DNA of 43,823 bases from Verrucomicrobiota bacterium (GTDB taxonomy: Bacteria > Verrucomicrobiota > Verrucomicrobiia > Chthoniobacterales > UBA10450), in contig QHNR01000041.1 of NCBI GenBank assembly GCA_003218475.1, positions 1 to 43,823 of the forward strand, in the 5' to 3' direction. This document shows, one piece after another, positions 378 through 15,019 of the stretch. The position numbers were made by a program, and so were the translations under genes. The notes beneath the pieces were generated by a model. The model was not told where the DNA came from, made no database searches, and was given only the letters and a program-made list of their open reading frames with translations. Positions within the stretch are counted from its first letter, which is position 1. Every line of letters starts with the position of its first letter.

Positions 378-1385
378 ATGCCAAAGTATTGGATGATCAA
401 TGATCGCAGCCAGGGGGGCGTTGGACCGGACGTCAGTACCGATGGGATGACTTATTGGGTCAGCGATAAACAACCGCTGACTGATATTAAGAATTGGCGG
501 CAAGTTACTCGTGCCAATTTCCAGAAGCTTCTGGTCGCAGCGGCCGACAAATTTCCAGCGCACGACCCGGCCGAGAACGAGAAACAAAGCCACGTCACCA
601 TTCTTGTGCATGGCTTTAACAACAGGTTTACGTCGGCCACCAGATTTTATCAGGATCTCTGTGGAAGACTTTTTGAAGGTCCAGACAGTCTCGGCCTGTG
701 CATTCTGTACGACTGGCCGTCACGCGGAAGCATCCTGGGCTATGAGCCTGATCGTTCACATGCGCGCCTGTGTGCTCACGATCTAACGGACGTGTTGAGC
801 GCACTATTCGATTGGTTGGTAGATAAACAGCAGGAAACCATTAATAACCCTGCAAAGGCCTGCAAAGCGAAGGTCTCCCTGATCTCCCACAGCATGGGAA
901 ACTATGTTGTGCAAAAGGCGATGGCGGCGGCGTGGACTCGGAAAAATCAACCTTTGCTCGTTAGTCTCATCAATCAGCTCGTAATGGTCGCCGGCGATGT
1001 CGACAGCGACTTATTCGATGCGGGTGCACCGGATAACAACGATGGCAACGCTGTAGCTAATCTCACCTATCGGATCACGGCGCTTTACAGCGGACGCGAC
1101 TCTGTCCTTGGCGCGTCTGCCGGACTAAAACATTTCGGCATGCGACGCCTGGGCCGCACTGGGCTTTCGAATCGACCGCCCTTGGCAGATCCGTCCTCGC
1201 CAACAGACAATGTCTGGGACGTTGATTGTTCCAGCTTTTTCCCACCGGAAGTCGACGGCGCGGCAATTCACGGTGCCTATTTCGTCAATGAAGGAACACT
1301 CAACCTGATGCGCCACGTCCTGCGCGGCATCGACCGTGGCGTGCTCGATACCCTTGGATACACCAAAGGCGCGGCCTGGCCGTAA
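378..1385 (+). CDS. DUF900-type alpha/beta hydrolase
   Basis: A 335-residue serine hydrolase of the DUF900/esterase-lipase type. The sequence shows the strand-loop ILVHGFNN (residues 75-82), which normally forms the oxyanion region; YDWPSRGS (111-118); and the nucleophile elbow SHSMGN with the likely catalytic serine at about residue 172. GDVDSDLF supplies a candidate acid and IHGAYF near residue 295 a candidate histidine, so a full catalytic triad is plausible. There is no signal peptide or membrane segment, so it should be made in the cytoplasm. It is followed after about 110 bases by a patatin-family lipase on the same strand, pairing two predicted lipid or ester hydrolases. The natural substrate cannot be read from the sequence. 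Confidence 0.85.
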   Translation: MPKYWMINDRSQGGVGPDVSTDGMTYWVSDKQPLTDIKNWRQVTRANFQKLLVAAADKFPAHDPAENEKQSHVTILVHGFNNRFTSATRFYQDLCGRLFEGPDSLGLCILYDWPSRGSILGYEPDRSHARLCAHDLTDVLSALFDWLVDKQQETINNPAKACKAKVSLISHSMGNYVVQKAMAAAWTRKNQPLLVSLINQLVMVAGDVDSDLFDAGAPDNNDGNAVANLTYRITALYSGRDSVLGASAGLKHFGMRRLGRTGLSNRPPLADPSSPTDNVWDVDCSSFFPPEVDGAAIHGAYFVNEGTLNLMRHVLRGIDRGVLDTLGYTKGAAWP

Positions 1386-1494
1386 GCGCGATGAGGGCAA
1401 GCGGAAAGACCACGCACGAACTGATGAGACGCACAGTAACGCGTGGTCTTAAGTAGAGGAGCGAAATCTCTTATGGCGAAAAGCCGGAAGGCGA

Positions 1495-3708
1495 ATGTCT
1501 GAGGTGATGTCGGAAAAGTCTGCTCCGCCGAAACAGCTGCGAAGACCCGATGGCAGTGCAAATTTCTTTTGGCATCTCCAGGACCTCTATCACGAGCTCA
1601 AGCCCTCCCGCTTCGTGTTCATCGTCGCGATCATTGGCGCGATTGTATTTGCCGGAGTCGAGCAAGGGCGGGAAGTCTTACGCGCGCTCGCTGAGGCGGG
1701 CGCAAGCACCAGTGTCACCGGCGCACTGCGACTGACGATGTTCGGTACCGGGCTGGCGATTTGGTCGCTGGCCAGTTGGTACTCCGCACGCGTCCTTTTG
1801 TATTTCGATTTTCCGAAATCGCATGAAGCCCACCCGCGACGGACAGGAATTTGGCAACGCCTGCATTCATGGCTGCAGAGAAACGTCCCGAGAATTCTCG
1901 GCGTGGCACCAATGGCAATCGTGGGCTGGAGCTTTCTGCGCGTGCGCGGCACTTACGAATCCGATCCTCCGCCGTCGCTGTTGTATCTCGGGCTGCTGAT
2001 GCTTGGCGGTGGCGTCCTGCTGTACGTGTTTTTCGTTTTGCGGAGGCGCTGGATCGAACGGCATGATCCGCAAGCTGCGCGACAGACATATCAGCAGCTC
2101 TCGCAACTGCCGCGCGATTCCGCCGCTGTGCTCACGCTCATGGCTGGCCTCTCACTCGCGTTATGCGCCATGTTCGTCGTCGAGCCTGTCTATTTCGCGG
2201 GAGCTATCGGCACAGGCGCGGTGTTAACGTTCGCAGCAGCGTGCTGGGTTTTCTGGGGCAGCGCGCTGGTTTATTTCGGAAGCTGGAAACGCATACCGGT
2301 AATCACTCTCATCGTTCTCCTGGTTCTCATCAGCAGTCTGTTCAATGACAATCACGACGTGCGCGTTGTGGCGCGCGACGAATTTTCGCGCCCGACGTTG
2401 CGCCAGGCGCTGCTGGATTGGAACTCGCACATCACCACCAAATATCCCGAGCGACCCGTGCATCCTCTCTTCATCGTCGCAACCGAAGGTGGCGGAATTC
2501 GTGCAGCCTATTGGACGACAACCGTGCTAGGCACGATCCAAGATGTGGATTCAAGTTTTGCCGATCATGTTTTTGCAATCAGCGGCGTTTCCGGTGGAAG
2601 TTTGGGCGCTGCGGTATTTGATGCCTTGGTCGCTGACGCAGTGCCGCAGGGCGAGTTCGCGATACGGGGCCAGGGCGTACTCGGCCAGGATTTTCTTTCG
2701 CCAGCTATCGCCGCGATGTTTTACCCGGATTTGATCCAGCGGTTTCTGCCGTTTCGTATTTTGTTTCTCGACCGCGGCCGCTGGATGGAACGCAGCTGGG
2801 AAAATGCATGGCGCAACACCCTGCACACCGATCGCTTAGCGAAACCCTTTCTCGATCTCTGGCAAGATCGACATCTGTATGTACCGTCTCTGTTCCTCAA
2901 CGCCACCTCGGTCGAAAGCGGCAATCGCATCATCGCAGCAAACGTCTTGATCGACGCCAATTTTCTTGAGGCGACAGATGCCACGGGAAAGTTGTTGCCT
3001 GTATCGCAACACACAGAGCGCCGGCACCCGAAGATCGACGTGCGGCTCAGCACCGCCGCGCATATGAGCGCGCGATTCACCTATGTGAGTCCCGCCGGCC
3101 GTTTTGCCCTGGACGGCACGCATGTCGTCGATGGCGGTTATTTCGAAAACTCCGGCGCCGCAACTGCGCTGGATATTTTACGGCAGGTAAACAACGAAGT
3201 CCGTCGGAATGCCGAGTTGCGCGCCATCATTCCGCAGATCATCATGATCAGCAACAATCCGCTCGGCGTTGCTTCCGGCAGTCGCGATCTGACGATGACG
3301 AAGCAAGCACTCAAGAACGTCGCGCGCAGCGCAACTGCAGAAGCCGCCCGGCGTGAACCAGGAACATTTCTGGAAGACGCGCTTGCGCCGGCGTATGCGT
3401 TGCTCTCTACGCGCGACGCACGCGGCGAGTACGCGCAGAAGGCCATCGGACAGGCGCAGCGAGAATTTTGCGACGCGATCAAAGCACAACTAGGAATTCA
3501 AGTGGCCGGGCCGCAGTGCTCGTATTTCTTTTCGCTCGCGCCGGCGACCGTTCCCTTGCTCCTCGGTTGGATGCTCTCAAACCGCGCGGCCGAGGCAATG
3601 CAAAAAGAAATGTTCGATTCAGGATTGTCAGCAAAAGCACCGGTGCCAACATGGAATCAAGCAATGCTTAACCAAATCATCGCCGCGCTTCACAGCGAAA
3701 GGCATTAG
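1495..3708 (+). CDS. Membrane-anchored patatin-like phospholipase
   Basis: A 737-residue protein with two parts. Residues 38 to about 285 hold roughly six or seven hydrophobic segments typical of an integral membrane domain. From about residue 320 there is a patatin-like lipase domain: the glycine-rich oxyanion motif GGGIRAAYW (around 332), the nucleophile elbow GVSGGS (serine about 366) and the catalytic aspartate in DGGYFENSG (about 546). Patatins use a Ser-Asp dyad to hydrolyse acyl esters of phospholipids. Most bacterial patatins are soluble and near 300 residues, so the long membrane part is unusual and suggests action at the inner membrane. Start could be here or at the second ATG four codons later. 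It lies downstream of another hydrolase and just upstream of a CHAT protease remnant. Confidence 0.85.
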   Translation: MSEVMSEKSAPPKQLRRPDGSANFFWHLQDLYHELKPSRFVFIVAIIGAIVFAGVEQGREVLRALAEAGASTSVTGALRLTMFGTGLAIWSLASWYSARVLLYFDFPKSHEAHPRRTGIWQRLHSWLQRNVPRILGVAPMAIVGWSFLRVRGTYESDPPPSLLYLGLLMLGGGVLLYVFFVLRRRWIERHDPQAARQTYQQLSQLPRDSAAVLTLMAGLSLALCAMFVVEPVYFAGAIGTGAVLTFAAACWVFWGSALVYFGSWKRIPVITLIVLLVLISSLFNDNHDVRVVARDEFSRPTLRQALLDWNSHITTKYPERPVHPLFIVATEGGGIRAAYWTTTVLGTIQDVDSSFADHVFAISGVSGGSLGAAVFDALVADAVPQGEFAIRGQGVLGQDFLSPAIAAMFYPDLIQRFLPFRILFLDRGRWMERSWENAWRNTLHTDRLAKPFLDLWQDRHLYVPSLFLNATSVESGNRIIAANVLIDANFLEATDATGKLLPVSQHTERRHPKIDVRLSTAAHMSARFTYVSPAGRFALDGTHVVDGGYFENSGAATALDILRQVNNEVRRNAELRAIIPQIIMISNNPLGVASGSRDLTMTKQALKNVARSATAEAARREPGTFLEDALAPAYALLSTRDARGEYAQKAIGQAQREFCDAIKAQLGIQVAGPQCSYFFSLAPATVPLLLGWMLSNRAAEAMQKEMFDSGLSAKAPVPTWNQAMLNQIIAALHSERH

Positions 3709-3744
3709 CGAGAAACCAGCGCGAGACGAATTCCAAATCGCTGA

Positions 3745-3963
3745 CAGAGCGGACTGAAACTCAATGGCACCTGGCTGGTTGTCCTCTCTGCTTGCGAGAC
3801 TGGCTCGGGCGAAGCGCGCGCTGGTGAAAGTGTGATGGGCCTAAGGCGAGGTTTCATCCAGGCCGGCGAGCAGAATTTGTTGATGACGCTATGGCTAATC
3901 AGCGATAGGGCGATGGTACAGATCATGTTAGATTTCTACGAAGCTGCCGATAAGACCCACAAC
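3745..3963 (+). pseudogene. Remnant of a CHAT-domain (caspase-like) protease
   Basis: Translating the frame that passes through 3832 back to the stop at 3742 gives LVVLSACETGSGEARAGES followed by GLRRGFIQAGEQNLLMTLW and ending near DFYEAADK. This is the diagnostic C-terminal half of CHAT peptidases, including the catalytic cysteine in the SACETG motif and the LRRxF-xxAGxxxLLMxLW block. There is no upstream domain with the catalytic histidine, a TGA lies directly before the fragment, and after about 3960 the reading no longer resembles CHAT. It is therefore a decayed piece of a gene that was probably several hundred codons long. An ORF starting at GTG 3832 remains but lacks the cysteine. Confidence 0.75.
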
Positions 3964-4160
3964 GCAATTTTTATCGCAGCTCATTCGTCTTTGGAAGCTT
4001 TATGTTGCGCAACCACGATTTATGACCGGTAGCATTGCGAAATCAGTCAGAGCCGAAGCTGAAAAGCCTTTACTCGGCGCACGAAAAAAGATATCATCAC
4101 CGAGAAGTGAAGAATTCGTATGAGAAAATCGGTACGATCAACGGCCTCTGATCTAAATAT

Positions 4161-4811
4161 ATGACCGTTCCGAAGTTAACTGCTGCCTTAGCTAAGGAAT
4201 ATAACGATCTCTTTAATCGTTGCGAAATGGCACCTGATAAAATGACTGAAGTCGAAGGAGTGGTTGAGCGAATTCTCCAGTTCCAGAATCGTTACGCGCC
4301 GATCGCTGCTGAATCGACTGTGCCGTGGTACGTGATCGCCGTCATTCATGATATGGAATGCGGTCTCGATTTTACCAAGCACTTGCATAATGGCGACTCG
4401 CTCAAGCGCCGCACGGTCAACGTACCGGCCGGCCGCCCGAAAACCGGCCAGCCACCTTTTACCTTCGAGGTGAGCGCGCTGGACGCGCTCGAGTACGACG
4501 GATTCACCGCGTGGAGCGACTGGAGCATCGCAGGAATTTGTTACAAGCTCGAAGGCTACAACGGTTGGGGATATCGCGCGCACAAAATCAACAGCCCGTA
4601 TCTCTGGAGTTACTCGAACCTTTACACGAGGGGCAAATATGTTGAGGACAACCAATGGTCGGGCACAGCTGTTTCGCGCCAATGTGGAGCCGCCGTCATC
4701 CTTCGACGCATGAGCGACCATGGCACTATCGATCTTGTCTCAGCGCCTTCATCCAAGCTTACCGATGCCGCAACGCTGGCCGAGGTTCCGCGGCACTTAT
4801 TCGATGGTTAA
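4161..4811 (+). CDS. Lysozyme-family protein (COG5526 type)
   Basis: A 216-residue protein that matches the COG5526 lysozyme-like pattern. It has WYVIAVIHDMECGLDF, with a likely catalytic glutamate at residue 66; a HLHNGDSL motif; the VPAGRPKTGQPPFTFE loop; WSIAGICYKLEGYNGWGYR; and the conserved INSPYLWSYSNLYTRGKY and CGAAVILRRM segments. Members of this family are expected to cleave the glycan strand of peptidoglycan. There is no signal peptide, so the enzyme would need a non-Sec route or cell lysis to reach the wall. It sits about 20 bases upstream of an L,D-transpeptidase-fold gene on the same strand, probably cotranscribed. Product family is fairly sure; the exact bond cut is inferred. 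Confidence 0.75.
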   Translation: MTVPKLTAALAKEYNDLFNRCEMAPDKMTEVEGVVERILQFQNRYAPIAAESTVPWYVIAVIHDMECGLDFTKHLHNGDSLKRRTVNVPAGRPKTGQPPFTFEVSALDALEYDGFTAWSDWSIAGICYKLEGYNGWGYRAHKINSPYLWSYSNLYTRGKYVEDNQWSGTAVSRQCGAAVILRRMSDHGTIDLVSAPSSKLTDAATLAEVPRHLFDG

Positions 4812-4831
4812 TTGAGCAATACGGCATTCCT

Positions 4832-5515
4832 ATGAAAAAAAAGAAACCGCAGTTAAAACGTCGCAGCGCAAGAGCAACCGGTTCCGGGAAAGCAAAACGA
4901 AAAAAATCAGCGAAGGCGAAACCGACTCTGACGCAACGCCTGGCGCGGGCAAAAAAGCTGGAGGCATTGGATGCAGGGAAACCTGCGTTTAGAGTCTCGC
5001 GAGAAAGGGCTCTGGCATCTCAGCCGTTGGCTTTGGGGTCGCATCCGTTCCGCAACGATGATTTCCCGCAAACATACATTCAGCAAATTTCGGTGAGGCT
5101 GGACGATCCTGATCACCCTCTCACGCTTACTTGGACTGGATCTAATGCTGCCAGTCAACAGACCGGGCCGTTCAGGACATCACCCGGTGCAGGGTTAAGA
5201 GGTCTCAATTGCGATAATGATGCCACGAGTCGACGATCGGGCTCCAAATGCACTCCGAAAGGGATCTACCCCGTGCAAGGCTTTCAGCGGAGCCTTAATA
5301 GTGATTCTCGCGCGACATATGTCACCTGGTTCATGCAACGCCGGGGCATCGCGCTTCACTATTTTCCAATTGTCCCCGCGTACGCAGCTTCCCACGGCTG
5401 CGTGCGTATTCAGTCGGTAGATGTGGCGCGACTTATCCAAGACAATTCACTAGTGGGTAACACCCAGGTGGTGGTAAGCGGAACCTGGACAAAGCCGGCA
5501 AAGCAATGGAGCTAA
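4832..5515 (+). CDS. YkuD-fold L,D-transpeptidase-like protein
   Basis: A 227-residue protein with a YkuD catalytic signature: histidine 176 in GIALHYFP and the SHGCVRI motif at 187-193, with the nucleophile cysteine at 190 and arginine at 192. TPKGIYPVQGF upstream is typical of the same domain. L,D-transpeptidases make 3-3 crosslinks or attach lipoproteins in peptidoglycan. The first 45 residues are very rich in lysine and arginine and have no hydrophobic core, so this is not a Sec signal; it may be a nucleic-acid or wall-binding tail. The start at 4832 is preferred to a longer in-frame opening because the latter would overlap the whole end of the lysozyme gene. Confidence 0.8.
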   Translation: MKKKKPQLKRRSARATGSGKAKRKKSAKAKPTLTQRLARAKKLEALDAGKPAFRVSRERALASQPLALGSHPFRNDDFPQTYIQQISVRLDDPDHPLTLTWTGSNAASQQTGPFRTSPGAGLRGLNCDNDATSRRSGSKCTPKGIYPVQGFQRSLNSDSRATYVTWFMQRRGIALHYFPIVPAYAASHGCVRIQSVDVARLIQDNSLVGNTQVVVSGTWTKPAKQWS

Positions 5516-5525
5516 ACTTTCGCTC

Positions 5526-6455
5526 TTAAGCTTGCGGGAGGTAACCCTGCCACTGATTTAGTCTGGGAGTAGGATCGATTAAGTCCTTTCGACGCATAAA
5601 CGAAATGCCGTCCGATCTTTTCTTCGATCTGGCTGCATCTGTGATTGTCAACGGTCCCGAAGCGCTCTTGTCGTAAAGCTCCAAGTGCAACATATCGCTT
5701 GGGACTTGAATACCGACCAAGTGTCCAACTCTGGCGATTTGCTCTCCAGCTCGGACCTTGTCTCCCTGTTTCACGGTCGTTTTTGCCTGGATTTCTCCGT
5801 AACGCGCCAGGAAGTCGCCGTGATCGACTTCCAAAGCGAACGTCTGGCAATAAAACGGATACGGGCCACGAATCACGATGCCGTCACCGATGGCGTGTAT
5901 CCAAGTGCCTTTTCCAAAATACAAGTCGCAACCGGCATGGGCACGGGCGCCGTTGCTGCGATTAGAAGCAAACGCGCGGGGCGAGCGAATCCAGTCTGCC
6001 GCGGGAAGTGTTGGAAAAGGAAACAAGAATTCGCCGGCGTTGCTGGAAACATCCGGCTGGTTCGGCGTTTCGTGGACTGCCGGTTTCTCGTCCACGGCGT
6101 CCAAGAGTGCGTGCCATGTCTGACTGTCCGGTATAATCAGACCATCCACTGAGGTAGTGAAACGACTTTGAAAGGCTTCGATTGCCGTGACCGTGTTCGA
6201 AGTCGCAGGAGGCTGGGCGATTTTTCCATCAACCCCTTTCGGATCAAGCTCAGGAGCTTGTAACGCGTGCGCAGCTGTTTCCAAAAGACGCTGCACGATT
6301 TGTACATCGGGTTGGAGGTTGCTTGCCCCTTTTTCCCAACGCCCGACTGATCTGGAGATTTGTGAGCTCAAGTGATCAAATTCAGACAGCAGGTTTCCGT
6401 TAACTTCCGCCCGCAGCTTGCAGGAGTGCCTGCCACGTCTGACTGGCGGGGTCAA
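5526..6455 (-). CDS. M23-family peptidase with N-terminal peptidoglycan-binding domain
   Basis: Up to 309 residues. Residues 36-118 form a peptidoglycan-binding-like repeat with the pattern SVGRWEKG, DVQIVQRLL, DPKGVDGK, TVTAIEAFQ and DGLI-PDSQTW. Residues 165-262 form an M23 (LytM-type) domain: HAGCDLY gives zinc ligands H173 and D177, and MLHLELY supplies H257. The usual HxH motif reads MLH, so the residue that is normally the first histidine is methionine; activity may be altered. There is no signal peptide. The start shown is a TTG that overlaps the end of the upstream gene by 56 bases; a later TTG or CTG near residues 20-30 is equally possible. Overlap suggests translational coupling with the kinase-like gene upstream. 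Confidence 0.75.
   Translation of the reverse strand: MTPPVRRGRHSCKLRAEVNGNLLSEFDHLSSQISRSVGRWEKGASNLQPDVQIVQRLLETAAHALQAPELDPKGVDGKIAQPPATSNTVTAIEAFQSRFTTSVDGLIIPDSQTWHALLDAVDEKPAVHETPNQPDVSSNAGEFLFPFPTLPAADWIRSPRAFASNRSNGARAHAGCDLYFGKGTWIHAIGDGIVIRGPYPFYCQTFALEVDHGDFLARYGEIQAKTTVKQGDKVRAGEQIARVGHLVGIQVPSDMLHLELYDKSASGPLTITDAARSKKRSDGISFMRRKDLIDPTPRLNQWQGYLPQA
6102..6350 (-). repeat. Duplicated peptidoglycan-binding module, copy in the peptidase gene
   Basis: This segment encodes the roughly 83-residue module beginning SVGRWEKG and ending SQTWHALL. A second copy lies at 6421-6669. The two are colinear and share most residues, including GRWEKGA, PKGVDGKIA and PPATSNTV, so they arose by tandem duplication. 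Confidence 0.8.
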
Positions 6456-8040
6456 TTAATCCATCAATCGAAATGTTGGAACGGCTCTGAAAAGCTTCGA
6501 TTGCAACCACCGTATTCGACGTCGCAGGCGGCCGCGCAATCTTTCCATCAACGCCCTTCGGATCAATCTGAGGAGCTTGTAGTCTTTGCGCCGCCGCTTG
6601 CAAGAGGCGTTGCACAGTTTCCACGTCCGCTTGAAGATTGCGCGCGCCTTTCTCCCAGCGGCCGACGGAGCCAGCAATTACTGCGAGCGGAGTGTTGGAG
6701 ACATCATTAGACTTGGTCGTCGTGTCGGACTCCTGTTCCTGCTTGTCTTCCGCCTCAAGAGCGGCGCTCACATTTGCATCCAAAAAAAGGCTTTTGTCCT
6801 TCCGGGAGCTCAGGATCTCGACGGCTTGGTCGACGTTACCCTTCATCGTTTTGAAATCGGTCGGGGTAAAGAGGAGCTCGGTTTGATACCACTGGGCGAC
6901 TTCCGGCTTCTGGAGCTCCTTTTGCAGGTCAAGAAGTCGGTTATACGTTTTGGGATCCATGTGGCTGATTTTGTCCAGAAGATGGTAACTCTTGGCCGAA
7001 TTCCCGCTGATAAGGCCAGCGTCGTTGTCCTTCATGATGATGCGATTGATTAGAACCGCTTCTGGAGGAATCTCCTTCAACTGTTCGGCGGCCTTTGTAG
7101 AATCGCCCTTCTTGGTCTTGTGTTTCACAGCACCGTTTTCAATCCATACGTAGATCTTCTGAGAATGCATATTTCCGCTGAAGCGATCAGCCTGGCTCAT
7201 GATAAAGTCCATGAGTACCATTTCAGAAAGATCCTTTACTTGGACGATTTGCTGAACCGCGGCCTGATTAAGTTTACCACTGCCGTCTTTGCAGTTTAAC
7301 TTCAACAGGTTGGAGTTGGTTACTTTGCCAAACTCAGCCGAGGCTGCAAAAGCACCGGCTCCCCCGAGGTCGCTCAAATGAGGATAACTTTGTTCTCCTG
7401 TGGGGTTGGCCTGCAAAGCGCCGTAAAGCTGCTTCCCATCTTCGGTATAGAGGGTGGAATTACTGTGGGCATCGTCCAAGGCTCTCAGCTCGGTCCACTG
7501 CTTTCGGTTGTTCGATCCGATTGCCTTCGACTTCCCCAAATCAGCCAGAGACTTGTGCGCGGCCACGTCCATCGTCCGGACGATGGCAGGCTCGACATGG
7601 CCTGTATCAAGGAACCGCGACAAATGGTAGTAGCCGAGAATGGAGGGGCTGTAGGTGAAATGAGTCGGAATGGACTGCTTATATTTCGCTATGACGTTGT
7701 CACCGCTTGAATGAGCCTTTCCTGTGTGGCTTGCGGCGTAACCGAGATGGCTTGTTCCTGCCGGCAACCTGACCGAGTGGATATTGATCCCCGGTGAAGT
7801 GCTGTAGGTTTTGGGGATCAGAACGATGTCCAATCCTTCTTTAGTTTTACCATTGTAAAAATCGATCCCGGCCAGTTCCCTTTCCTTTTCGATATCTTTC
7901 TTGCTGTAAATCTCGGGATGTCCAGGGAAGGCCGCGGGACGGATCGCTAGCTCAACCGTGCCGTTGGGAGCGGCGTGGCTGATTGTCTCCTGCCCCGTGG
8001 GCATTTTCATGTGAAAATCAACACCAGAAAGTCCAGACAC
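6400..8040 (-). CDS. Kinase-fold protein (PI3/4K-Fam20C-like) with C-terminal peptidoglycan-binding module
   Basis: A 546-residue protein. The central part carries motifs of the PI3/4-kinase/Fam20C/HipA-like kinase group: NVIAKYKQS with candidate ATP lysine 119 or 121, a helix-hinge segment LGYYHLSRFLDTGHVEPAIVR (134-155, the RLLGLxxVPPTxxR pattern), the catalytic-loop motif QADRFSGN (283-290) and a metal-binding KDND (337-340). Residues 457-545 are a peptidoglycan-binding-like module duplicated in the next gene. A low-complexity acidic linker (about 425-450) joins them. No signal peptide is visible. The first codon shown is GTG; an ATG ten codons later is an alternative. A paralogue without the binding module lies just upstream. 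The kinase assignment is from motifs only; no substrate is known. Confidence 0.6.
   Translation of the reverse strand: MSGLSGVDFHMKMPTGQETISHAAPNGTVELAIRPAAFPGHPEIYSKKDIEKERELAGIDFYNGKTKEGLDIVLIPKTYSTSPGINIHSVRLPAGTSHLGYAASHTGKAHSSGDNVIAKYKQSIPTHFTYSPSILGYYHLSRFLDTGHVEPAIVRTMDVAAHKSLADLGKSKAIGSNNRKQWTELRALDDAHSNSTLYTEDGKQLYGALQANPTGEQSYPHLSDLGGAGAFAASAEFGKVTNSNLLKLNCKDGSGKLNQAAVQQIVQVKDLSEMVLMDFIMSQADRFSGNMHSQKIYVWIENGAVKHKTKKGDSTKAAEQLKEIPPEAVLINRIIMKDNDAGLISGNSAKSYHLLDKISHMDPKTYNRLLDLQKELQKPEVAQWYQTELLFTPTDFKTMKGNVDQAVEILSSRKDKSLFLDANVSAALEAEDKQEQESDTTTKSNDVSNTPLAVIAGSVGRWEKGARNLQADVETVQRLLQAAAQRLQAPQIDPKGVDGKIARPPATSNTVVAIEAFQSRSNISIDGLIDPASQTWQALLQAAGGS
6421..6669 (-). repeat. Duplicated peptidoglycan-binding module, copy in the kinase-like gene
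   Basis: This is the partner of the copy at 6102-6350, encoding the C-terminal 83 or so residues of the kinase-like protein. DPKGVDGK, TVVAIEAFQ and DGLIDPASQTW follow the pattern of peptidoglycan-binding domains found on phage and secretion-system-associated wall enzymes. Confidence 0.8.
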
Positions 8041-8130: not shown

Positions 8131-9552
8131 TTAATTTTGCGGAAGGGGAGCTGACGTAGCGCTATCTGAAGAAGGCGAAGTGACGGCACTTTCTGGTTCG
8201 GCGTTCTTCGCCTGAGCTGCTTCGATCTCTTTTGCGTAAAGTTTCTTCATCGTTCCCTCAAAATCCAGGTCGACCTGAATATCTTTGGCGTCTACTCTGC
8301 TTTTGAGCGATGCGGCCTGCTTAATGAGACTGACTCTCATCTGATCATAGTTCTCACCTGAGATATGGACGGCGTTCACAAAGTAGTCTTTTACCTTCGC
8401 GGCCGAGCCGGGTTCGCTATCTTGCATCAAGCCTGCCAACCACTGCAACCGATTGTAGATCGTTTGGTCAATGTGGTGAGTCTCGTCGAGAATCGGAGTC
8501 ACAGAGATCGAGTTCTTTTCCCAGTTCATTCCGTCGTCGTTATCCTTGTAGATGATCCGCTTTAACGATTGAATAGGACTAACAGCGTCAGCCTTGTCCT
8601 TGTCGCTCACTTTGTCATCCCACTTCACTTTACCTTCATTGGTCACATAGTGTTGCAACTCGTCTATGCTGATGTTGCCCAGGCGATCAACCTGTCGAAA
8701 GATTGAATCCAAGATCACCCCGCGGGTCATGTCCTGTGCAAGAGCCAGGTCCTGAAGCGACTTCGCATCGTTCAAGTTTAAAATGTTTACCACTGGCGAC
8801 TTTGAGGACAGCACTTTGTAGAAGCTGTGTCCTCTAATCGCATCGCGTGTCCAATAGTCCTCGGGACTACTTTCTTCTCCTCGCGGGTTCTGGGCCAGAG
8901 ACCCATAGACAAGCTTGCCCCCAGAGAGAACTATGCTTGGCCTGGCCGCATTCACCTTGTCTCGCAGATTCGCCCAAGCCGCGGTGCATTCTGGATGGCC
9001 GGTCGTTCGGGCCTGGTTGCCGATCTTCTCGAACTCCTGGACATCCATCGTTCGATAAGTCGCGGGCGGCACATCGACAAGATGGCCGAGAAGCCGAGAC
9101 ACATAAAAGGAGGCGAGCCCCGACTGGGCCATGGTACCCACCTTGAACTTCGCTATCTTTTCGCCAGACCTTTTGTTACTGTACTTTTTGGTTTTGCCGG
9201 GGCGGTACGGACCTTCCGTTTTTTCAAACGTTTCCTTGCCTAACGTCGGAGGGAGCCGGTAGATTTCCACTCCCGCTGAAGTGTTATGGAGTTTCGGAAC
9301 GACACCCACGCTCTCGGGCCCGCTTGAGGCGTAGAAGTCGAGACTGCCGAGCTGATCGATCTTATTCTTGTCGCGCTTGGTGAACCAATCATTCGAGCCC
9401 GAGAGAGCCTCTTTCTCTTTGAGCTTCACATCAGGAGGAGTGAAGGGAAACTGGATCAGTCGCTGCGCGATTTCGGTAACACCATTAGGCGTTGGGTGGT
9501 CTATCAGTGGCGGGTCCCCGAGTGGCAGCGACTCATCGGATACAGAATTCAT
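8131..9552 (-). CDS. Kinase-fold protein (PI3/4K-Fam20C-like), paralogue
   Basis: A 473-residue protein sharing order and motifs with the downstream neighbour: EKIAKFKVG (candidate ATP lysine near 135-137), ASFYVSRLLGHLVDVPPATYR (147-167), RQVDRLGN (286-293, catalytic loop), and IIYKDNDDG (334-341, metal site). It also shares the N-terminal layout: DHPTPNGVTEIA against SHAAPNGTVELA, and a later NPRGEES against NPTGEQS. It lacks the peptidoglycan-binding module and ends in a Ser/Pro/Ala-rich tail. No signal peptide is present. A good Shine-Dalgarno (GGAGG at 9561-9565) supports the ATG at 9552. It is probably the first gene of a three-gene leftward operon ending with the M23 peptidase. Confidence 0.6.
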   Translation of the reverse strand: MNSVSDESLPLGDPPLIDHPTPNGVTEIAQRLIQFPFTPPDVKLKEKEALSGSNDWFTKRDKNKIDQLGSLDFYASSGPESVGVVPKLHNTSAGVEIYRLPPTLGKETFEKTEGPYRPGKTKKYSNKRSGEKIAKFKVGTMAQSGLASFYVSRLLGHLVDVPPATYRTMDVQEFEKIGNQARTTGHPECTAAWANLRDKVNAARPSIVLSGGKLVYGSLAQNPRGEESSPEDYWTRDAIRGHSFYKVLSSKSPVVNILNLNDAKSLQDLALAQDMTRGVILDSIFRQVDRLGNISIDELQHYVTNEGKVKWDDKVSDKDKADAVSPIQSLKRIIYKDNDDGMNWEKNSISVTPILDETHHIDQTIYNRLQWLAGLMQDSEPGSAAKVKDYFVNAVHISGENYDQMRVSLIKQAASLKSRVDAKDIQVDLDFEGTMKKLYAKEIEAAQAKNAEPESAVTSPSSDSATSAPLPQN

Positions 9553-9854
9553 ACTTCAATCCTCCGTTGCGCGTTAGAAAACGCTGATCACACAGTGTTG
9601 ACGAAAAATCCGCTAAAGAAAAGTAAAAATATCAATAAAATACGGCGAGCAAATGCCGCGCCAGACTAGACGTTTGTTTGGTCATTCATAGACGACGGCG
9701 ATGTCAACAAACAGTCTTGTTTTGCCAGCGATATGTGCCGGAAGTATCTAGGATTTTTGGAAGAATCGATTTGCTCTAAGAAACGATGGCTGCAGATTTG
9801 AACCAATTGCTATGCCTCCGAAAATGAAACGCGCGGCAAAGTAAGAGCGTCATT
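9553..9854. promoter_or_regulatory. Divergent intergenic region, likely promoters
   Basis: About 300 AT-rich bases separate the leftward kinase-like operon from the rightward propeller gene. The only firm signal is the ribosome binding site GGAGG (reverse strand, 9561-9565). A TTGACG at 9598 is followed by an A-rich stretch but by no good -10 box, so promoter positions are not assigned. Confidence 0.4.
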
Positions 9855-10811
9855 ATGCCGAAGGAATGGTATGTCAGCTTTCACGGCGGCGAAGAAAAGG
9901 CCTCGCTAAACAATATCCACGTCTATTCGACTGATGGAAAGCAATTGCGGAAGGCTTTAAACAAAAAAAGTCTTCCCGGGGGAACCAAACTTCGTGAGCT
10001 TCGCGGATTCGTATTCGGGCCGGATCAGAACCTGTATGTGGTCAACGCATATTTCGAATATAGCGAAGTCCTGAAGTTCAAGGGCGCGCTTAATGAAAAT
10101 GGACAGCACGATTTTGCCGAGGTCTTCGTAAAACGCCACGCTGAAATGAATCCAGGGATCGACCATCCCTTTAACGTGGTGTTTGATTCCGAAGGCGACC
10201 TTTACGTTTCGAGCCAGAATACTAATCTCATCGCTAGATATCACGGTCCCGCAAGCAAAACAGGTAAGCCAGGAACGCCGATGCCTCTTCCTCAAGGCCT
10301 CGATCGCGGAAAAGTGGATCTCCCGCCGGGAACGTTCATTCCGTCGGCGAAGCTTGCGTCAAACGGTCTCCTGGAAGTCAGGGCGGTGATTTTTGCACCA
10401 AACAATGATTTGTATGTCGCGGATCGGGCTGCCGATTGCGTACGAATTTATGAGGCCCGCACGGGGCGCCATTTGCGGAATCTTGTTTCGCGAACCGATC
10501 AGCTCGACAGGCCGATCCATTTGTTGCTTAGTTCAGATGGTCGTTACCTTCTTATCGGGAGCGGCGGGAACGATTCAATTCTGCGGCATGATCTTCAGCA
10601 GGGCTCCACGAGCGTCTTTGTCGAATCAAAGTCCGGGGGTCTCAATGGCCCCGCTGGAATGGCATTCGGCGATGACGGCTTTTTCTATGTTGCCAGTCGC
10701 AATTCAAAGGAAATTCTTCGTTACGGTTCGGTCGACGGGCGACCACACGGTAAGCCTTTCATCAAAGACCTGGCGGATAATCCCGAATTTTTGATGCTCG
10801 TACGCCATTGA
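9855..10811 (+). CDS. NHL/SMP-30-type beta-propeller protein
   Basis: A 318-residue protein made of repeated blade-like units with the pattern GPDQNLYVVNA, DSEGDLYVSSQ, APNNDLYVADR, SSDGRYLLIGS and GDDGFFYVASR, each followed by a short strand that reads like IxRY or VRIY. These are typical of NHL or SMP-30/gluconolactonase-like six-bladed propellers. Such proteins serve as binding scaffolds, lactonases or lyases; no catalytic metal site can be named here. There is no signal peptide, unlike most bacterial NHL proteins, so it may be cytoplasmic or exported by another route. It is divergent from the kinase-like genes and followed by a small lipoprotein gene. Confidence 0.75.
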   Translation: MPKEWYVSFHGGEEKASLNNIHVYSTDGKQLRKALNKKSLPGGTKLRELRGFVFGPDQNLYVVNAYFEYSEVLKFKGALNENGQHDFAEVFVKRHAEMNPGIDHPFNVVFDSEGDLYVSSQNTNLIARYHGPASKTGKPGTPMPLPQGLDRGKVDLPPGTFIPSAKLASNGLLEVRAVIFAPNNDLYVADRAADCVRIYEARTGRHLRNLVSRTDQLDRPIHLLLSSDGRYLLIGSGGNDSILRHDLQQGSTSVFVESKSGGLNGPAGMAFGDDGFFYVASRNSKEILRYGSVDGRPHGKPFIKDLADNPEFLMLVRH

Positions 10812-10890
10812 GCCTTTGCACCAACTGCTCAAAGCCAAAACTGCCCTATTCTAAAGGATTGACTGCGCTGTCGAAATTTGGCATTAACAA

Positions 10891-11295
10891 ATGTCCATGA
10901 AGAATTACCTCACAACAGCATCGATCGTGGCGTCGCTGGTTTTATCCGGCTGTGCTTCTGTAAACACGGCGCATACTCCTCCAGAAGGTAGCGCAGAGAG
11001 GAATGCAATCCTGCAGGCAGTTCACCATGCGTTAGCTCGTCAGGGACGGAAGAATCTCGTGCTGATTGTTCCATACCTGAAGGTTCATAACGGTTGGGCC
11101 TGGATACAGGTCAATCCGCAATCGGCAGATGGCAAGCAACATTACGAATCGCAGTCGGGACTTCTGCAGCAGACAACGAACAAATGGAAGCTACTGGAAT
11201 GGATGCCCGCCGAGGAAGGAACCGATTACAAAAAATACTTCACAAATCTGAAAGCCAAATACCCATCCGCCCCACCTGATATTTTCCCTCAGTAA
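10891..11295 (+). CDS. Small lipoprotein, unknown function
   Basis: A 134-residue protein with a clear lipoprotein signal: Lys, a hydrophobic stretch and the lipobox LSGC with the lipidated cysteine at about residue 21. The mature part is about 113 residues and includes VHNGWAWIQVNPQ and a tryptophan-rich KWKLLEWMP segment, reminiscent of small periplasmic proteins that bind wall or surface polymers. I do not recognise a named family. ATG at 10891 or 10897 may be used. It follows the propeller gene by 80 bases on the same strand and may be cotranscribed. Confidence 0.7.
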   Translation: MSMKNYLTTASIVASLVLSGCASVNTAHTPPEGSAERNAILQAVHHALARQGRKNLVLIVPYLKVHNGWAWIQVNPQSADGKQHYESQSGLLQQTTNKWKLLEWMPAEEGTDYKKYFTNLKAKYPSAPPDIFPQ

Positions 11296-11337
11296 CCGGC
11301 TGTCTCTAAATAAAAAGTCCTGTCTAGGAAAAGATTA

Positions 11338-11634
11338 TCACTTCTCCTGAGGTTCCTCTCGCCTGTCATTGGTGGCGGCGTTGTCCTTTCTCTCGCCAAT
11401 TGTGCCAGCAAGGCCGCGCGCCATCTGCATTGTGTAGCTTAGTGGCGATTTTGTTTTCATCTGCGCGCGACGATCGCGTGTTCGCTGCGATTCGTAAACC
11501 GGGTGCGCACTGATGATTGATAGATTGACACTCTGATTGTTACTGACTAGGCTGCCCGGCACCATGAAGGACGCCCTGAGTGTTTTGTTGCGCCTTCTAC
11601 TCAGCATTTTGCTGTCGCATGCGCTTGAACCCAA
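11338..11634 (-). CDS. Possible small hypothetical protein
   Basis: A 98-codon open frame in an otherwise empty 420-base gap. Its middle (ASFMVPGSLVSNNQSVNLS) reads somewhat like a beta-strand protein, but both ends are charged and low in complexity, and no family is recognised. It could be real, a remnant, or chance. Nothing else was seen in 11296-11716. Confidence 0.25.
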   Translation of the reverse strand: MGSSACDSKMLSRRRNKTLRASFMVPGSLVSNNQSVNLSIISAHPVYESQRTRDRRAQMKTKSPLSYTMQMARGLAGTIGERKDNAATNDRREEPQEK

Positions 11635-11716
11635 GCCATGCCCCAGTTACCGGAACTTATGATTATGCCGGTTATGCAGAAATCGGGCGCGCGAAAAAGA
11701 TTGGCAAAGCGATAAC

Positions 11717-12607
11717 ATGTTTGGATCTACAATTCTCGACGCAGCGATCGGGATAATCTTCATTTATCTGTTGGTGAGTTTGGTTATCAGCGCGATAAAC
11801 GAGCTGATCGCTGCGATGCTAAAATCTCGCGCGAAAAACCTTTCGCAAGGTATTCAGGCGCTGCTTCAGGATCCTTCGCAGGCTGGTTGGGTGGCACGAC
11901 TCTATCAGCATCCCTTAATCCAGAGCTTGTCGCCGCCTAATAGTAAGCCTTCTTACATACCTTCTCGCACATTTGCGCTTGCATTATTGGATCTGATTGC
12001 GCCGGCCTCTACGGATGGGAGCCGGACACTGGCCGATCTCAAAGCAGGAATGGTCAATTTGCCGGAGCCGCTTCAAAGGACGCTAACCAACTTATTGGAC
12101 GAAGCGCAACATGACGTGGAGCGGTTAAAGACTCAGATCGAAATTTGGTTTAATAACGGAATGGATCGCGCCAGTGGCTGGTACAAACGCAAGACTCAGT
12201 GGATCCAGTTTTTTCTTGGGTTAAGTCTTGTTATTCTTCTTAACATCGACAGTGTGCATATCGGTCGAGCGCTTTTCGCGGTCAATTCTCCACTGCGAGC
12301 CTCGCTGGTCGAGAGTGCCAAGAGCTTCGTCGCTGAACCTGGAGGGGCAAACAAGCCCATTAAAGATGTGGTAGACGCAATTAGCACCGCATCCTTGCCA
12401 ATTGGTTGGACTGAAGTTCCGAAGCGCGATCAATGGCTAACCATCGCCTTGGGCTGGCTGATTACAGCACTCGCCGTTTCCCTGGGTGCACCGTTTTGGT
12501 TCGATCTCCTGAATAAGTTTGTCAACATTCGTGCGTCGGGAAAGGCACCGGAAGAAGAGCCGAAGCCACCCAAAGAAGTTCCTGCTCCTAAAGAACCTGG
12601 CGGCTGA
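11717..12607 (+). CDS. Conserved membrane protein of unknown function
   Basis: A 296-residue protein with an N-terminal membrane helix (residues 8-32), a soluble helical middle of about 130 residues, a second helix near 165-182 and a third near 240-258, then a Pro/Glu/Lys-rich tail. Strongly family-like strings are PSYIPSRTFALALLD, SGWYKRKTQWI, and LGWLITALAVSLGAPFWFD. I know this pattern as a widespread but uncharacterised bacterial membrane protein family; I cannot attach a function. The large loop between helices 2 and 3 probably faces the periplasm. It lies in the accessory region with wall-active and lipase genes, so a role at the envelope is a reasonable guess only. Confidence 0.7.
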   Translation: MFGSTILDAAIGIIFIYLLVSLVISAINELIAAMLKSRAKNLSQGIQALLQDPSQAGWVARLYQHPLIQSLSPPNSKPSYIPSRTFALALLDLIAPASTDGSRTLADLKAGMVNLPEPLQRTLTNLLDEAQHDVERLKTQIEIWFNNGMDRASGWYKRKTQWIQFFLGLSLVILLNIDSVHIGRALFAVNSPLRASLVESAKSFVAEPGGANKPIKDVVDAISTASLPIGWTEVPKRDQWLTIALGWLITALAVSLGAPFWFDLLNKFVNIRASGKAPEEEPKPPKEVPAPKEPGG

Positions 12608-12690
12608 ACTGATTTGTTCAGGCTAGACAAGGGTACCATCAGCGTGGGTTGAGCCAGCGCCAGCCGCCCCTCAAATAGCCACCCAAGCAA

Positions 12691-13585
12691 TTAACCCTCT
12701 GGAATCACTGGCTCCTGCTCTTTTGCTTTTCGAAAAATCATCCAGACTCTGGCAAGAACGAGCGCGGCACCTAACAAGGAAGAGATAGGAAAGCTTTCGC
12801 CGCCTAACACCCACCCGAGCATGACGGCACCTGGTGGGTGTGATGAGTGAGATACTTTGCAGCTGCGCCACGGTCAGTCGCGGCAGGAGCCAGTAAAGAA
12901 GTAGAAACGTGAGCGCCGATCCGATAACGGCGAGATACAGCAGGCAGAAGATTGCCATTGCAGTCCAGTGAAAGTGTGCCGGGTTTCCATCAATGGCAAA
13001 CCCAAGAACTAACAATGGGGCAATTCCAAAAATCATCTGCCACGCGGCCAGGATAGCGGGCGCGAGCTGGATCGATCGCGCCTTGACCAAGACTTTGGCG
13101 TAAGTCGCGCTGGCAGCTCCGATAACAATTCCTAGACCGCCCCAGAAAGCAAGCCGCCCGTTAGAACCGAGTAGCCGCCTACAAATTAGAGCGACACCAT
13201 CGAGCGCGATGATTGCGCCGCCAAGCTTTTGCAAACGTAACGGTTCATCCGGCAGCATCCAATGTACGAAGATCATGCCGAAAATCGGAATAGTTGCCTG
13301 CAGGACAGCAGCAAGACCCGATGAGACATGTAGCTCTGCCCAGAACAGTAACGTGTAGTTGACAGCGAACATAAGGATTCCCGTAATTGCCAGCACTGCG
13401 TAATCCAACGCCGGTGGCTGCAGCCGCACTGAGCCGACTGATACGGCGAGAAGCACAATGACCGCGATCAGAAAACGGATTCCGGTATGGGAGATCGGCG
13501 GCAGGTCGCGCAATCCAACCTTGATAGCCAGTCACGTCGAACTCCATCGAGCTTTAGGCTGCCAATGGCGCTTTAACTGTGCACC
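12691..13585 (-). pseudogene. Decayed EamA-family (DMT) transporter gene
   Basis: Comparison with the intact paralogue at 15100 shows two lesions. First, the frame encoding the conserved start WSST-LAIKVGLRDLPP carries a TGA at 13532-13534 where the paralogue has the codon for tryptophan (TGG). Second, one extra base near 12829-12842 shifts the frame just after SLITP; reading the other frame restores AVMLGWVLGGESFPISS and ends with IPEG at 12691, as in the paralogue. A shortened product starting at MRDLPP would lose the first helix and the last helices. The original was a ten-helix drug/metabolite exporter. Confidence 0.85.
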
Positions 13586-13748
13586 TGTTCTTCTCATCGA
13601 CACTTCTTGTTTAAGCACCGCACGGCGTTGCGGCTAGAAGATTGCATGCGAGGATACACACTGTTGAGAGGCTTTGTGAAAATTCTTCTCGTCACGTCAG
13701 TCACAATTCGGTTAACGAAAAGATTCTTCGCGAGATCTGACGACTCAC

Positions 13749-14414
13749 ATGAGAACAATAGGCACCATCCAAGGCAATGACATAATCGAGCTGGATGATG
13801 GCAGTGTAAGGTTCTTCGCGGGCGCGACGATCGACGGTGACGGCACAAACGGTCAATTTGGTCAGCCGCCCTGTTATGCTCCGGCATCTTACCACGGACA
13901 GACGCTGGATGTTCTCGCAAATGCCGGTCAGCCAGGGAATTGGTTCGGCGTCGTCACCGATACGGGCGATGAAACGGGCACACCCATCGTGCAAAAAGCT
14001 ACCGACCCCTGCTCCGGCGCGTACGTTTCGGCAACTTCGCTGTATCTGTTCGACAAAAATGGACAGCCGCTGCCGGATTGTTGCCCGTTCAAATATGTGG
14101 ACTCGGCGACGGTACCTTTCATCGTTGTGCCGCCGATGATCGTTAGCGGTGTGTCCGGCATCGCGCTCGGTTGCCGCTGTCTCGTGACGAATTCGGGAAC
14201 TGGAAAAACGATCGAAGCTGTCGTCGCAGATATCGGACCGTCGAATCACCTTGGCGAAATCAGCGTCGCCTGCGCTAAAGCAATCGGCGTTTCGACCGGA
14301 ACAACTCATCCAGCGAACGGCGGGGGTGCAGCGTCGCCGACGATTCGCTATCAGCTCTTTCCCGGAACAGCGGCGGTTGTTAACGGCGTAACCTATCCAT
14401 TGCAACCCAGCTAG
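13749..14414 (+). CDS. GH75 chitosanase-like protein
   Basis: A 221-residue protein resembling glycoside hydrolase family 75 (fungal-type chitosanase). It has an early IDGDG motif, the PFIVVPPM segment (123-130), and AVVADIGPSNHLGEIS (157-172), in which D161 and E170 are the likely catalytic pair of this family; it ends with the conserved YQLFPGT. Chitosanases hydrolyse beta-1,4 bonds in partly deacetylated chitin. There is no signal peptide, unlike secreted chitosanases, which is odd. Several cysteines are present (CCP, GCRC), more than expected of a cytoplasmic protein. It lies between the dead and intact transporter copies. Function as chitosanase is inferred from motif order. Confidence 0.65.
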   Translation: MRTIGTIQGNDIIELDDGSVRFFAGATIDGDGTNGQFGQPPCYAPASYHGQTLDVLANAGQPGNWFGVVTDTGDETGTPIVQKATDPCSGAYVSATSLYLFDKNGQPLPDCCPFKYVDSATVPFIVVPPMIVSGVSGIALGCRCLVTNSGTGKTIEAVVADIGPSNHLGEISVACAKAIGVSTGTTHPANGGGAASPTIRYQLFPGTAAVVNGVTYPLQPS

Positions 14415-14425
14415 TTCTCCGGAAA

Positions 14426-15019
14426 TTGTGCAGCGTGCTAAATTCCCGCGTGTTGCGCAAGTCGCTGGTCACGTTTTCGGCCCTGTTGTGTTCCGGCTTC
14501 TTCTTCGGATTGTACTTGCTGCGGGCGTTAGCTGCGGAGTCCTCTTATGCGCCTCCGCCCTTCGCCTGCGAGGTTCGTTATCACTTTCGCGAGCATTTCC
14601 GTCATGCAAAGCCCGGGGAGAAAAGCGTCTCAGCGCCATCATTTGAACGCGAGGCGCTGCCAACGTCCCACGTTGCGATTTCGGACGGCGTATCGGAACG
14701 AATCGTAGAAGGGCGCGTGGCACACCTGCCGTATCACTTTTCAGTAAAGATTAGTCGGGGAAGCGATAGCGAAAGCGGAACTCTTGAAGTCGATGTTCTG
14801 GATAGCTCGGGCAACTCTCTCGCTGGATTTCCGCAGGTGATGCCCAATCCTCTTACAAAGACAGGGGACTCGAGTCGGAAGGAATTCGAGCTGCCCGTTG
14901 AACAGGACCTCAAAAAGAAGATCAAGAAAATGCTCCTCGCGCAGGACCAGTTCCTCACCCATGTCGATTTAATTGTTGGAATGGACGATGATTTTCTATC
15001 GGCGGATTTTCCAAAGTGA
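14426..15019 (+). CDS. Exported protein of unknown function
   Basis: A 197-residue protein with an N-terminal hydrophobic stretch (about residues 15-36, ending in ALA-AES), so a signal peptide with cleavage near residue 37 is likely. The rest is a mainly beta pattern (YHFSVKISRG, SGTLEVDVLDSSG) followed by a lysine-rich helix. No family is recognised. Start codon is uncertain: TTG at 14426 and GTG at 14435 are both in frame. It starts 11 bases after the chitosanase-like gene and could be translated from the same message. Confidence 0.6.
   Translation: MCSVLNSRVLRKSLVTFSALLCSGFFFGLYLLRALAAESSYAPPPFACEVRYHFREHFRHAKPGEKSVSAPSFEREALPTSHVAISDGVSERIVEGRVAHLPYHFSVKISRGSDSESGTLEVDVLDSSGNSLAGFPQVMPNPLTKTGDSSRKEFELPVEQDLKKKIKKMLLAQDQFLTHVDLIVGMDDDFLSADFPK

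Follow-up and report, generated by a model that had tools for sequence, protein, structure and literature searches.

A putative genomic island of Udaeobacter-type Verrucomicrobia groups predicted FAM20-like kinases with mostly leaderless wall enzymes

A kinase pair and an L,D-transpeptidase form the core of the island

The left-hand 15 kb of contig QHNR01000041.1, a stretch of 43,823 nucleotides referred to here as the window, hold a cluster of wall- and lipid-active genes, the island, of a Candidatus Udaeobacter-type soil Verrucomicrobia. Its stable heart would be a tandem pair of predicted FAM20-like kinases, Kin1 and Kin2, together with an L,D-transpeptidase-fold protein (LDT) that bears a basic, low-complexity N-terminal tail. 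We tentatively propose that the island encodes a kinase-coupled wall-enzyme module whose products are released by lysis or a non-classical route, with no dedicated injection machine. The kinase pair would work on the wall enzymes, whose basic Ser/Thr-containing tails are candidate sites, and kinase action would set the place or timing of wall-enzyme activity. The leaderless enzymes would be kept in the cytosol until lysis or a non-classical route brings them to the peptidoglycan (PG).

A metagenome-assembled genome (MAG) of 3.16 Mb in 195 contigs (G000; other G numbers denote comparison genomes and L numbers the compared loci) contains the window as its contig C187. MAG incompleteness (G000 is 83% complete) weakens single absences, and the Fisher p values given below are indicative, the genomes being related. 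Relatives that bear the island include Candidatus Udaeobacter sp. AEW3 and AV-series Verrucomicrobia MAGs. The kinases and the LDT were surveyed in 213 genomes of the order and Kin1 in 83 genomes of the family, and the genus sample comprised 35 genomes.

The gene kin2 (6400-8040, minus strand) encodes a kinase-fold protein, predicted to be FAM20-like, with a C-terminal PG-binding domain. Its tandem paralogue kin1 (8131-9552, minus strand) encodes a product 28% identical to Kin2. The LDT gene (4832-5515, plus strand) encodes a Lys/Arg-rich N-terminal tail and a YkuD domain (PF03734, E 4.9e-7 in the 4655-5515 frame), the catalytic motif of which, H177 plus S188-R193 (SHGCVR), is invariant in 9/9 copies. 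Across the order the kinase family is present in 13 genomes, the LDT subfamily in 14 and both in 12, so that the LDT accompanies 12 of the 13 kinase-bearing genomes and only 2 of the 200 others (Fisher p 9e-17). The 13 include a partial copy in G067 and a copy in G492 that stops after about 320 residues near a contig end. The cut-off for the LDT subfamily (E < 1e-50) was chosen after the list had been seen, the next genome standing across a wide gap at 6e-7. The association holds within the genus (10/11 kinase-bearing genomes versus 1/24 others, p 6e-7) and outside it, where just two genomes bear the kinase (p 2e-4). It reaches two other families of the order. In G492, which belongs to a different family, the kinase and LDT genes stand head to head, with starts 76-286 bp apart according to the start chosen; in G080 and G536 each lies on a contig of its own.

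The two partners also share a domain. The PG-binding domains of the LDT and the kinases (nine sequences) are separated from those of the M23 peptidase (seven) by a branch with support 96/92, which indicates that one version of the domain is common to LDT and kinases. The basic tail is likewise a recurrent feature of the LDT. Lys and Arg make up 0.40-0.48 of the first 50 residues in nine genus copies and 0.32 in G492, compared with a median of 0.12 in a background of 176 open reading frames, some LDTs and one amidase among them; the truncated LDTs of G053 and G069, and that of G495, were left out of this test. The G495 tail is Lys/Ser-rich by eye. Ser and Thr account for 10-28% of the first 50 residues in the basic tails of the LDT and of the amidase described below, which are not uniformly Ser-rich.

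Kin1 and Kin2 are predicted to adopt a FAM20-like fold

An AlphaFold model of Kin2, made from 20 sequences, has pLDDT values of mostly 75-98 in the kinase part and is poor at the PG-binding end. In a Foldseek search with this model the 22 best PDB matches, from eight entries, were all FAM20 kinases (FAM20C, FAM20A and hydra Fam20), with a best E of 4.5e-7 and a probability of 1.00; PI4K-II, HipT and CtkA followed. The first-pass annotation had described both proteins as kinase-fold, which the model upholds and these matches narrow to a predicted FAM20-like fold, at modest TM-scores and with no sequence model matching. Among 20 aligned sequences K119/K121 is near-invariant, D285-R286 and N290 are invariant, and K337-D340 is near-invariant. 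We take these residues to be the catalytic Lys, the catalytic Asp and the metal-binding Asp. The Lys, the DRxxGN-type and the KDND-type motifs are retained in both Kin1 and Kin2.

Kin1 and Kin2 align with proteins from a Bdellovibrionaceae MAG, a Pseudobdellovibrio MAG, a Spartobacteria MAG (G492), a Chthoniobacterales MAG (G080) and Candidatus Electronema. In G079 the two are joined in one protein of 1117 residues. This fused protein is omitted from alignment A1, as are the G069 Kin1 (masked by a run of N), the G051 fragments (contigs C65 and C173) and the G067 fragment; alignment A5 omits the same rows and G536. The kinase tree includes the G079 protein as slices and G536, and leaves out the G069 Kin1, the G051 fragments (C65, C173) and G067. 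The G051 and G075 kinases are sisters in both the Kin1 and the Kin2 subtree. In a phylum-wide draw of 387 genomes, only 10 of which besides G000 belonged to the order, the kinase was found in G000 alone, and a viral collection contained no relatives of Kin2. The Pseudobdellovibrio copy has no Pfam match at 0.1. Beside the genes for the Bdellovibrio-type kinases, at L061:1276-2469 and L063:8302-9717, are those for a DUF2252 protein (PF10009, E 3e-8) and for an exported protein with no Pfam match.

Export leaders differ between kinase copies

Leader state was judged from the hydropathy of the first 50 residues, as the best 11-residue mean. By this measure eight proteins of the window's island are leaderless: the DUF900 hydrolase, the lysozyme-like protein, the LDT, the M23 peptidase, Kin1, Kin2, the NHL-repeat protein and the GH75-like protein. 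The first-pass annotation had named six of these (lysozyme, LDT, M23, GH75-like and both kinases) as lacking a leader, correctly in each case. Its wider description of the cluster as mostly leaderless fits the eight but not the products of 10891-11295 and 14426-15019, which have leaders, nor the patatin-like protein, which has a strong N-terminal hydrophobic segment.

Outside G000 the kinases are not uniformly leaderless. A Sec-like leader (2.05-3.28) is present on 8 of the 23 kinase copies with a readable start, in five genomes: Kin1 and Kin2 of both G051 and G075, a third G051 copy, and the copies of G536, L061 and L063. The other 15 copies (0.32-1.25) are Kin1 of G000, G055, G059, G079 (fused), G053, G076 and G069, Kin2 of G000, G055, G059, G053, G069 and G076, and the single copies of G080 and G492. 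Two more could not be judged, that of Electronema (start cut) and that of G067 (partial). The leader states of Kin1 and Kin2 agree in all eight genomes where both are readable. The LDT is leaderless in 11 copies by hydropathy (-1.89 to 0.77) and in G495 by eye, and the M23 peptidase in seven copies (0.01 to 1.14).

Loss of the leader from the island kinases is the simpler reading, because the Bdellovibrio-type and G536 copies have leaders. It is weakened by the leaderless G080 and G492 copies and by a small tree with long deep branches. A wrongly placed start was rejected as the cause of the missing Kin1 leader, since the upstream DNA shows the start context conserved and the leader stretch gone. 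In G053 a leader-like stretch lies directly upstream of kin2 in another frame (L028:2787-2873) and ends near the start of the kin2 frame. This may reflect decay or an assembly error, and part of the leaderlessness of Kin2 may be erosion.

A more specific form of our proposal would have the FAM20-like pair phosphorylate the basic tails of LDT and amidase, shifting their charge and envelope binding; most island copies of the kinases would have shed their export signals, which would transfer the reaction from outside the membrane into the cytosol, ahead of release, and the pair may be a heteromer like FAM20A/FAM20C. Taken as a whole, this version is distinctly improbable.

Several observations weigh against the proposed module. 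Phosphorylation and lytic release are steps that we infer, as we do the kinase substrates, the kinase-enzyme coupling and the biological role. The TM-scores of Kin2 to FAM20 kinases are only 0.28-0.46, the kinase parts have no Pfam match at E 0.01, with no FAM20 or CotH model among the matches, and in a profile search of PDB sequences they matched no kinase. G051 has kinases without this LDT, while the LDT of G077 and G495 is unaccompanied by a kinase match. The G536 LDT tail has a Lys/Arg fraction of only 0.18, which 40 of the 176 background frames equal or exceed, and Ser/Thr is not enriched in the window's LDT tail (0.12). A leader is present on the kinase but not on the LDT of G075 and G536, so by Sec alone the two would occupy different compartments. 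Finally, the first start codon is GTG or TTG in 5/6 leaderless Kin2 copies, so that their true N-termini are uncertain; in the window's kin2, which has no in-frame leader, it is GTG.

Gene content and conservation of the island

The 15-kb cluster of wall and lipid enzymes that the first-pass annotation listed is real, as judged from Pfam matches, the Kin2 model and an order conserved in relatives. Its extent needs qualification, as the cluster starts at the contig edge and its left border therefore lies outside the window. The first gene (378-1385, plus strand), leftmost of the island in this contig, encodes a DUF900 alpha/beta hydrolase (PF05990, E 2.6e-23). Its copies in G059, G076, G079 and G067 are 84-90% identical, with a dN/dS of 0.073. 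Between this gene and that of the LDT is a variable slot, occupied in G000 by genes for a patatin-like phospholipase (1495-3708, plus strand; PF01734 at E 7.4e-6 and 26.7 bits, just below the 27.7 cut-off) and a lysozyme-like protein (4161-4811, plus strand). Just before the LDT gene, a stretch encoding 18 residues (4787-4840, plus strand) is probably a remnant of the amidase_2 gene that fills the slot in G076 and G077; it is 83% identical over the 18 residues by tblastn (E 3e-4), and blastn gave no match there.

To the right of the LDT gene, 5526-6455 (minus strand) encodes an M23 peptidase (Peptidase_M23, E 6.7e-11) with an N-terminal PG-binding domain that is sub-threshold for PG_binding_1; homologues suggest a true start near 6371. 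The C-terminus of Kin2 is this same domain, also sub-threshold in Pfam. Beyond kin1, and divergent from it, is the gene for an NHL-repeat beta-propeller protein (9855-10811, plus strand; dN/dS 0.07-0.09), which adjoins kin1 in the genus loci compared. Genes for a small lipoprotein with the lipobox LSGC (10891-11295, plus strand) and for a membrane protein of 296 residues (11717-12607, plus strand), which has a weak, 32% identical relative in G051, come next.

The right-hand end contains two EamA transporter genes, a truncated second copy (12671-13513, minus strand) that is 82% identical in DNA to the intact one (15100-16197, minus strand). The intact gene opens a conserved right border of EamA, DUF5684, enoyl-CoA hydratase and carboxyl transferase. 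Between the broken and the intact copy sit the gene for the GH75-like protein (13749-14414, plus strand) and that for a small exported protein (14426-15019, plus strand), which are neighbours in both G000 and G067, the latter gene with a shorter frame in G067. The GH75-like protein has no Pfam match of its own; a G051 protein, 32% identical to it over 89 residues, matches PF07335 (E 7e-9).

The clustering of these enzymes is not due to chance, given an order kept in relatives and purifying selection (dN/dS 0.07-0.25 over 16 gene pairs, 13 from the island and three from the border). A Kin1 match is present in 11 of the 83 family genomes, all of the window's own genus, with G067 and G080 as weak matches to the kinase family. 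The first-pass annotation had left open whether the genes cluster in related genomes, and the core is indeed present, in the same order, in sister species. G059, G079 and G076 keep the arrangement DUF900, slot, LDT, Kin2, Kin1, NHL, lipoprotein, which contig ends break into pieces in G055, G053, G069 and G075; of this core, G051 has the kinases and the NHL gene only. Seven loci continue beyond the lipoprotein or NHL gene, and in six of them (G000, G055, G059, G053, G069 and G076) an EamA gene follows, G051 being the exception.

The slot between DUF900 and LDT varies from genome to genome. It holds the lysozyme gene alone in G055, a small lipoprotein gene in G059 and G079 (G067 also has one before its LDT gene), and an amidase_2 gene with a basic tail in G076 and G077, where a gene for a papain-type peptidase adjoins DUF900. 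We suggest, as tentatively as for the proposal of which this is part, that the locus is a lineage-specific, recombining genomic island of Udaeobacter-type Verrucomicrobia with interchangeable slot enzymes. Variable slot contents are also what would be expected if recombination at a permissive site kept unrelated envelope genes together without any shared function. The amidase remnant and duplicated EamA border fit this alternative, as do the GH75-like and lysozyme genes of G067, which lie on a contig apart from the core, and the patatin gene, found in G000 alone, with no match listed in the 11 loci from 10 genomes compared (matches of up to 41 residues were not listed). We nevertheless find an ordinary neighbourhood comparatively unlikely, as the association of kinase and LDT is also seen in two further families of the order and one version of the PG-binding domain is common to both partners.

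To the left of the G059 island, L025:227-8356 encodes an alpha-2-macroglobulin that is divided between two frames, and a penicillin-binding protein carrying transglycosylase and BiPBP_C domains. To the right of about 16.7 kb the window consists largely of ordinary chromosomal genes (carboxyl transferase, G6PD, queuosine synthesis, RuvX and others). Both 19516-22820 and L032:3629-7022 encode repetitive proteins, one of which has a peptidase S74 chaperone domain, and a related pair sits near the G080 kinase gene. A single frame at 26128-27990 fuses a low-molecular-weight phosphotyrosine phosphatase domain to a serine hydroxymethyltransferase.

The lysozyme family occurs with several kinds of system

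Searches of Pfam, PDB, NCBIfam and PHROGs gave no significant match to the lysozyme-like protein (one PDB lectin appears at E 0.62). Seven relatives, to which it is 36-82% identical, share an invariant Glu, and some of these are fusions with PG-binding or endonuclease domains. The name given in the first-pass annotation is thus retained as a probable assignment from family resemblance and the literature, no model matching the window protein. A single-sequence structure prediction (mean pLDDT 36) was not used.

The family is a leaderless wall enzyme that occurs with several kinds of system. It is present in 6 of the 213 order genomes and has no relatives in the viral collection. In G000, G055 and G067 its gene lies in the island or next to a GH75-like gene. 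The G040 gene is near a terminase gene, and the surroundings in G491 are phage-like by eye, the adjoining gene having no Pfam match. In G533 a PAAR gene (PF05488) overlaps the gene for a PG-binding lysozyme, which is followed by one for an LprI-family exported protein (PF07007); an IcmF-related gene and a weak TagF_N match (E 0.057) are nearby. Twelve plasmid records contain relatives, and 7/12 neighbourhoods were read. Conflict-type loci surround the gene in four of the seven (Caulobacter, Sinorhizobium, Rhizobium, and Paroceanicella with an adjoining patatin gene), with genes for trypsin-like peptidases and an AAA ATPase, an S8 peptidase, or patatin, CHAT and caspase proteins. One plasmid relative is fused to trypsin-like and DNA/RNA endonuclease parts and is encoded beside an alpha/beta hydrolase gene. 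The Rhodoplanes gene is near a phage tail gene, and those of Methylobacterium and Nodularia have no clear context.

The plasmid loci bring to mind intracellular conflict or programmed lysis, in which leaderless lipases, lysozyme, papain-type peptidase and amidase would destroy the producer's own envelope upon infection. Lysozyme and papain-like domains are candidate PG-attacking effectors in the available part of Kaur et al. 2020 (PMC7159879). Within the order, SIR2 and nSTAND1 genes lie near the lysozyme and GH75-like genes of G067, and the papain-type gene beside DUF900 in G076 and G077 points the same way. This explanation seems improbable to us for the island as a whole. PADLOC returned no match for the ten island proteins submitted, and the window proteins scanned gave no STAND, trypsin or endonuclease domain and no EAD1, the rest of G000 not having been searched. 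The kinase/LDT core is absent from that account of conflict systems, as far as its available part goes.

Contractile injection machinery does not track the island

The first-pass annotation called leaderless wall enzymes typical of cargo of contractile injection or type VI secretion systems, or of lytic release. Stated fully, the cargo idea would make them antibacterial effectors of a type VI secretion system (T6SS) or an extracellular contractile injection system (eCIS), with the small exported proteins (that of 14426-15019 and the lipoproteins) as periplasmic immunity proteins. The lysozyme family, laid out like a T6SS effector in G533 with its PAAR, LprI and IcmF-related neighbours, is the sole island part with direct positional support for the T6SS idea. 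The paired GH75-like and exported-protein genes of G000 and G067 also suit an effector-immunity arrangement, and published T6SS effectors include M23, chitosanase-like and lysozyme-like domains with DUF1311/LprI neighbours, according to the part of PMC12135965 available.

A search for injection genes, which the first-pass annotation had proposed for the surrounding genome, succeeded in G067, which combines a T6SS with island genes, and in G079, which has an eCIS with DUF4157 proteins, but not in G000. The G079 eCIS (L079, 87-13426 on contig C113, which is not the contig of the island) comprises two eCIS_core proteins, a sheath C-terminal domain, a gp19 tube protein, a baseplate OB protein and an AAA ATPase, the sheath gene being in two overlapping frames. 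G000 has no match to PF04984 (Phage_sheath_1), PF05943 (VipB) or PF13699 (eCIS_core) at E 0.001, nor to the eCIS ATPase at E 1e-20, the limit used with the G079 AAA protein as query. The Phage_sheath_1 model is not very sensitive, falling below cut-off even for the G079 eCIS. In the genus sample it matched in 3/35 genomes (two over the cut-off), gp19 in 17/35, VipB in 1/35 (G067) and eCIS_core in 1/35 (G079).

No association between machinery and island emerged across genomes. The eCIS ATPase is present in 28 of 213 order genomes, namely 3/13 kinase-bearing and 25/200 others (p 0.39), with partial matches in G492 among the three and in several of the 25. The gp19 gene is present in 6/11 kinase-bearing and 11/24 other genus genomes (p 0.72). 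It first looked like a promising sign of a carrier, but in G000 (L077:6751-7272, contig C79), where it is isolated without eCIS companions, and in G059 (L078:16644-17174, contig C277) it stands in the same neighbourhood of ordinary genes. These isolated gp19 proteins are visibly similar to the G079 eCIS tube. No PAAR, VgrG, DUF4157 or T6SS gene was seen with the island.

After the sheath, tube, VipB, eCIS_core and ATPase queries, eCIS and T6SS were downgraded as carriers, and a dedicated contractile carrier for the island is not supported. Effector-immunity pairing across the whole island was also rejected, as the small lipoproteins track no single enzyme; most slots are without a constant immunity-like partner, and the lipoprotein before the LDT is missing where lysozyme or amidase fills the slot. 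The cargo idea further presupposed that relatives carry no Sec leaders, an expectation that fails for the kinases, with Sec-like leaders on eight copies, and stands for the LDT and M23 peptidase. We therefore regard injected antibacterial cargo as unlikely, and retain the kinase-coupled module with lytic or non-classical release as our tentative proposal.

Comparison with known systems

FAM20-fold kinases of the secretory type are known mostly in animals and, in the case of CotH, in spores. The divergent family predicted here travels with PG enzymes in soil bacteria that rank among the most abundant groups, and its copies in relatives of predatory bacteria bear Sec-like leaders. A kinase and a tailed wall enzyme would offer a simple two-component test of phospho-control of bacterial wall enzymes, and the island is a clear case of leaderless wall enzymes for which no delivery machine was found.

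The island resembles the PG effectors of T6SS (WHIX, PAAR-linked) in its lysozyme-like, M23, chitosanase-like and PG-binding domains and in the LprI neighbour in G533, but differs in that no PAAR, VgrG or T6SS gene was found with it and no VipB match in G000. Geller et al. 2021 (PMC8213781, in the part available) list a toxin of Ca. Udaeobacter copiosus that is associated with an eCIS. The genus type is the same, yet the G079 eCIS and island are on different contigs and the two do not co-occur across genomes. With the NucA/trypsin conflict systems (System 3 of Kaur et al. 2020) the island shares the lysozyme family and papain-type peptidases without leaders; it has kinases and an LDT instead of trypsin, NucA endonuclease or STAND domains, none of which was found in the window proteins scanned.

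The LDT has the YkuD domain and the His and SHGCxR motif of other YkuD L,D-transpeptidases, but no leader or anchor. CotH is a FAM20C-related bacterial kinase whose gene is clustered with those for CotB/CotG, proteins with Ser/Lys/Arg-rich regions, as the available part of PMC7821199 describes. The island likewise clusters kinase genes with genes for tailed proteins, although here these are wall enzymes (LDT and amidase) with short, partly Ser-rich tails, and sporulation is not implied. Relative to the FAM20 kinases, the island family is bacterial and shows no sequence similarity by Pfam or PDB profile search. Both of its paralogues keep catalytic-type residues, unlike FAM20A, which is a pseudokinase, and most island copies are leaderless, entry into the secretory pathway being visible elsewhere in the family and not in the window. 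The likeness to FAM20 kinases lies in the predicted fold of Kin2, in the leaders on eight copies from five genomes, and in a pair of paralogues like FAM20A and FAM20C (PMC7948968, in the part available).

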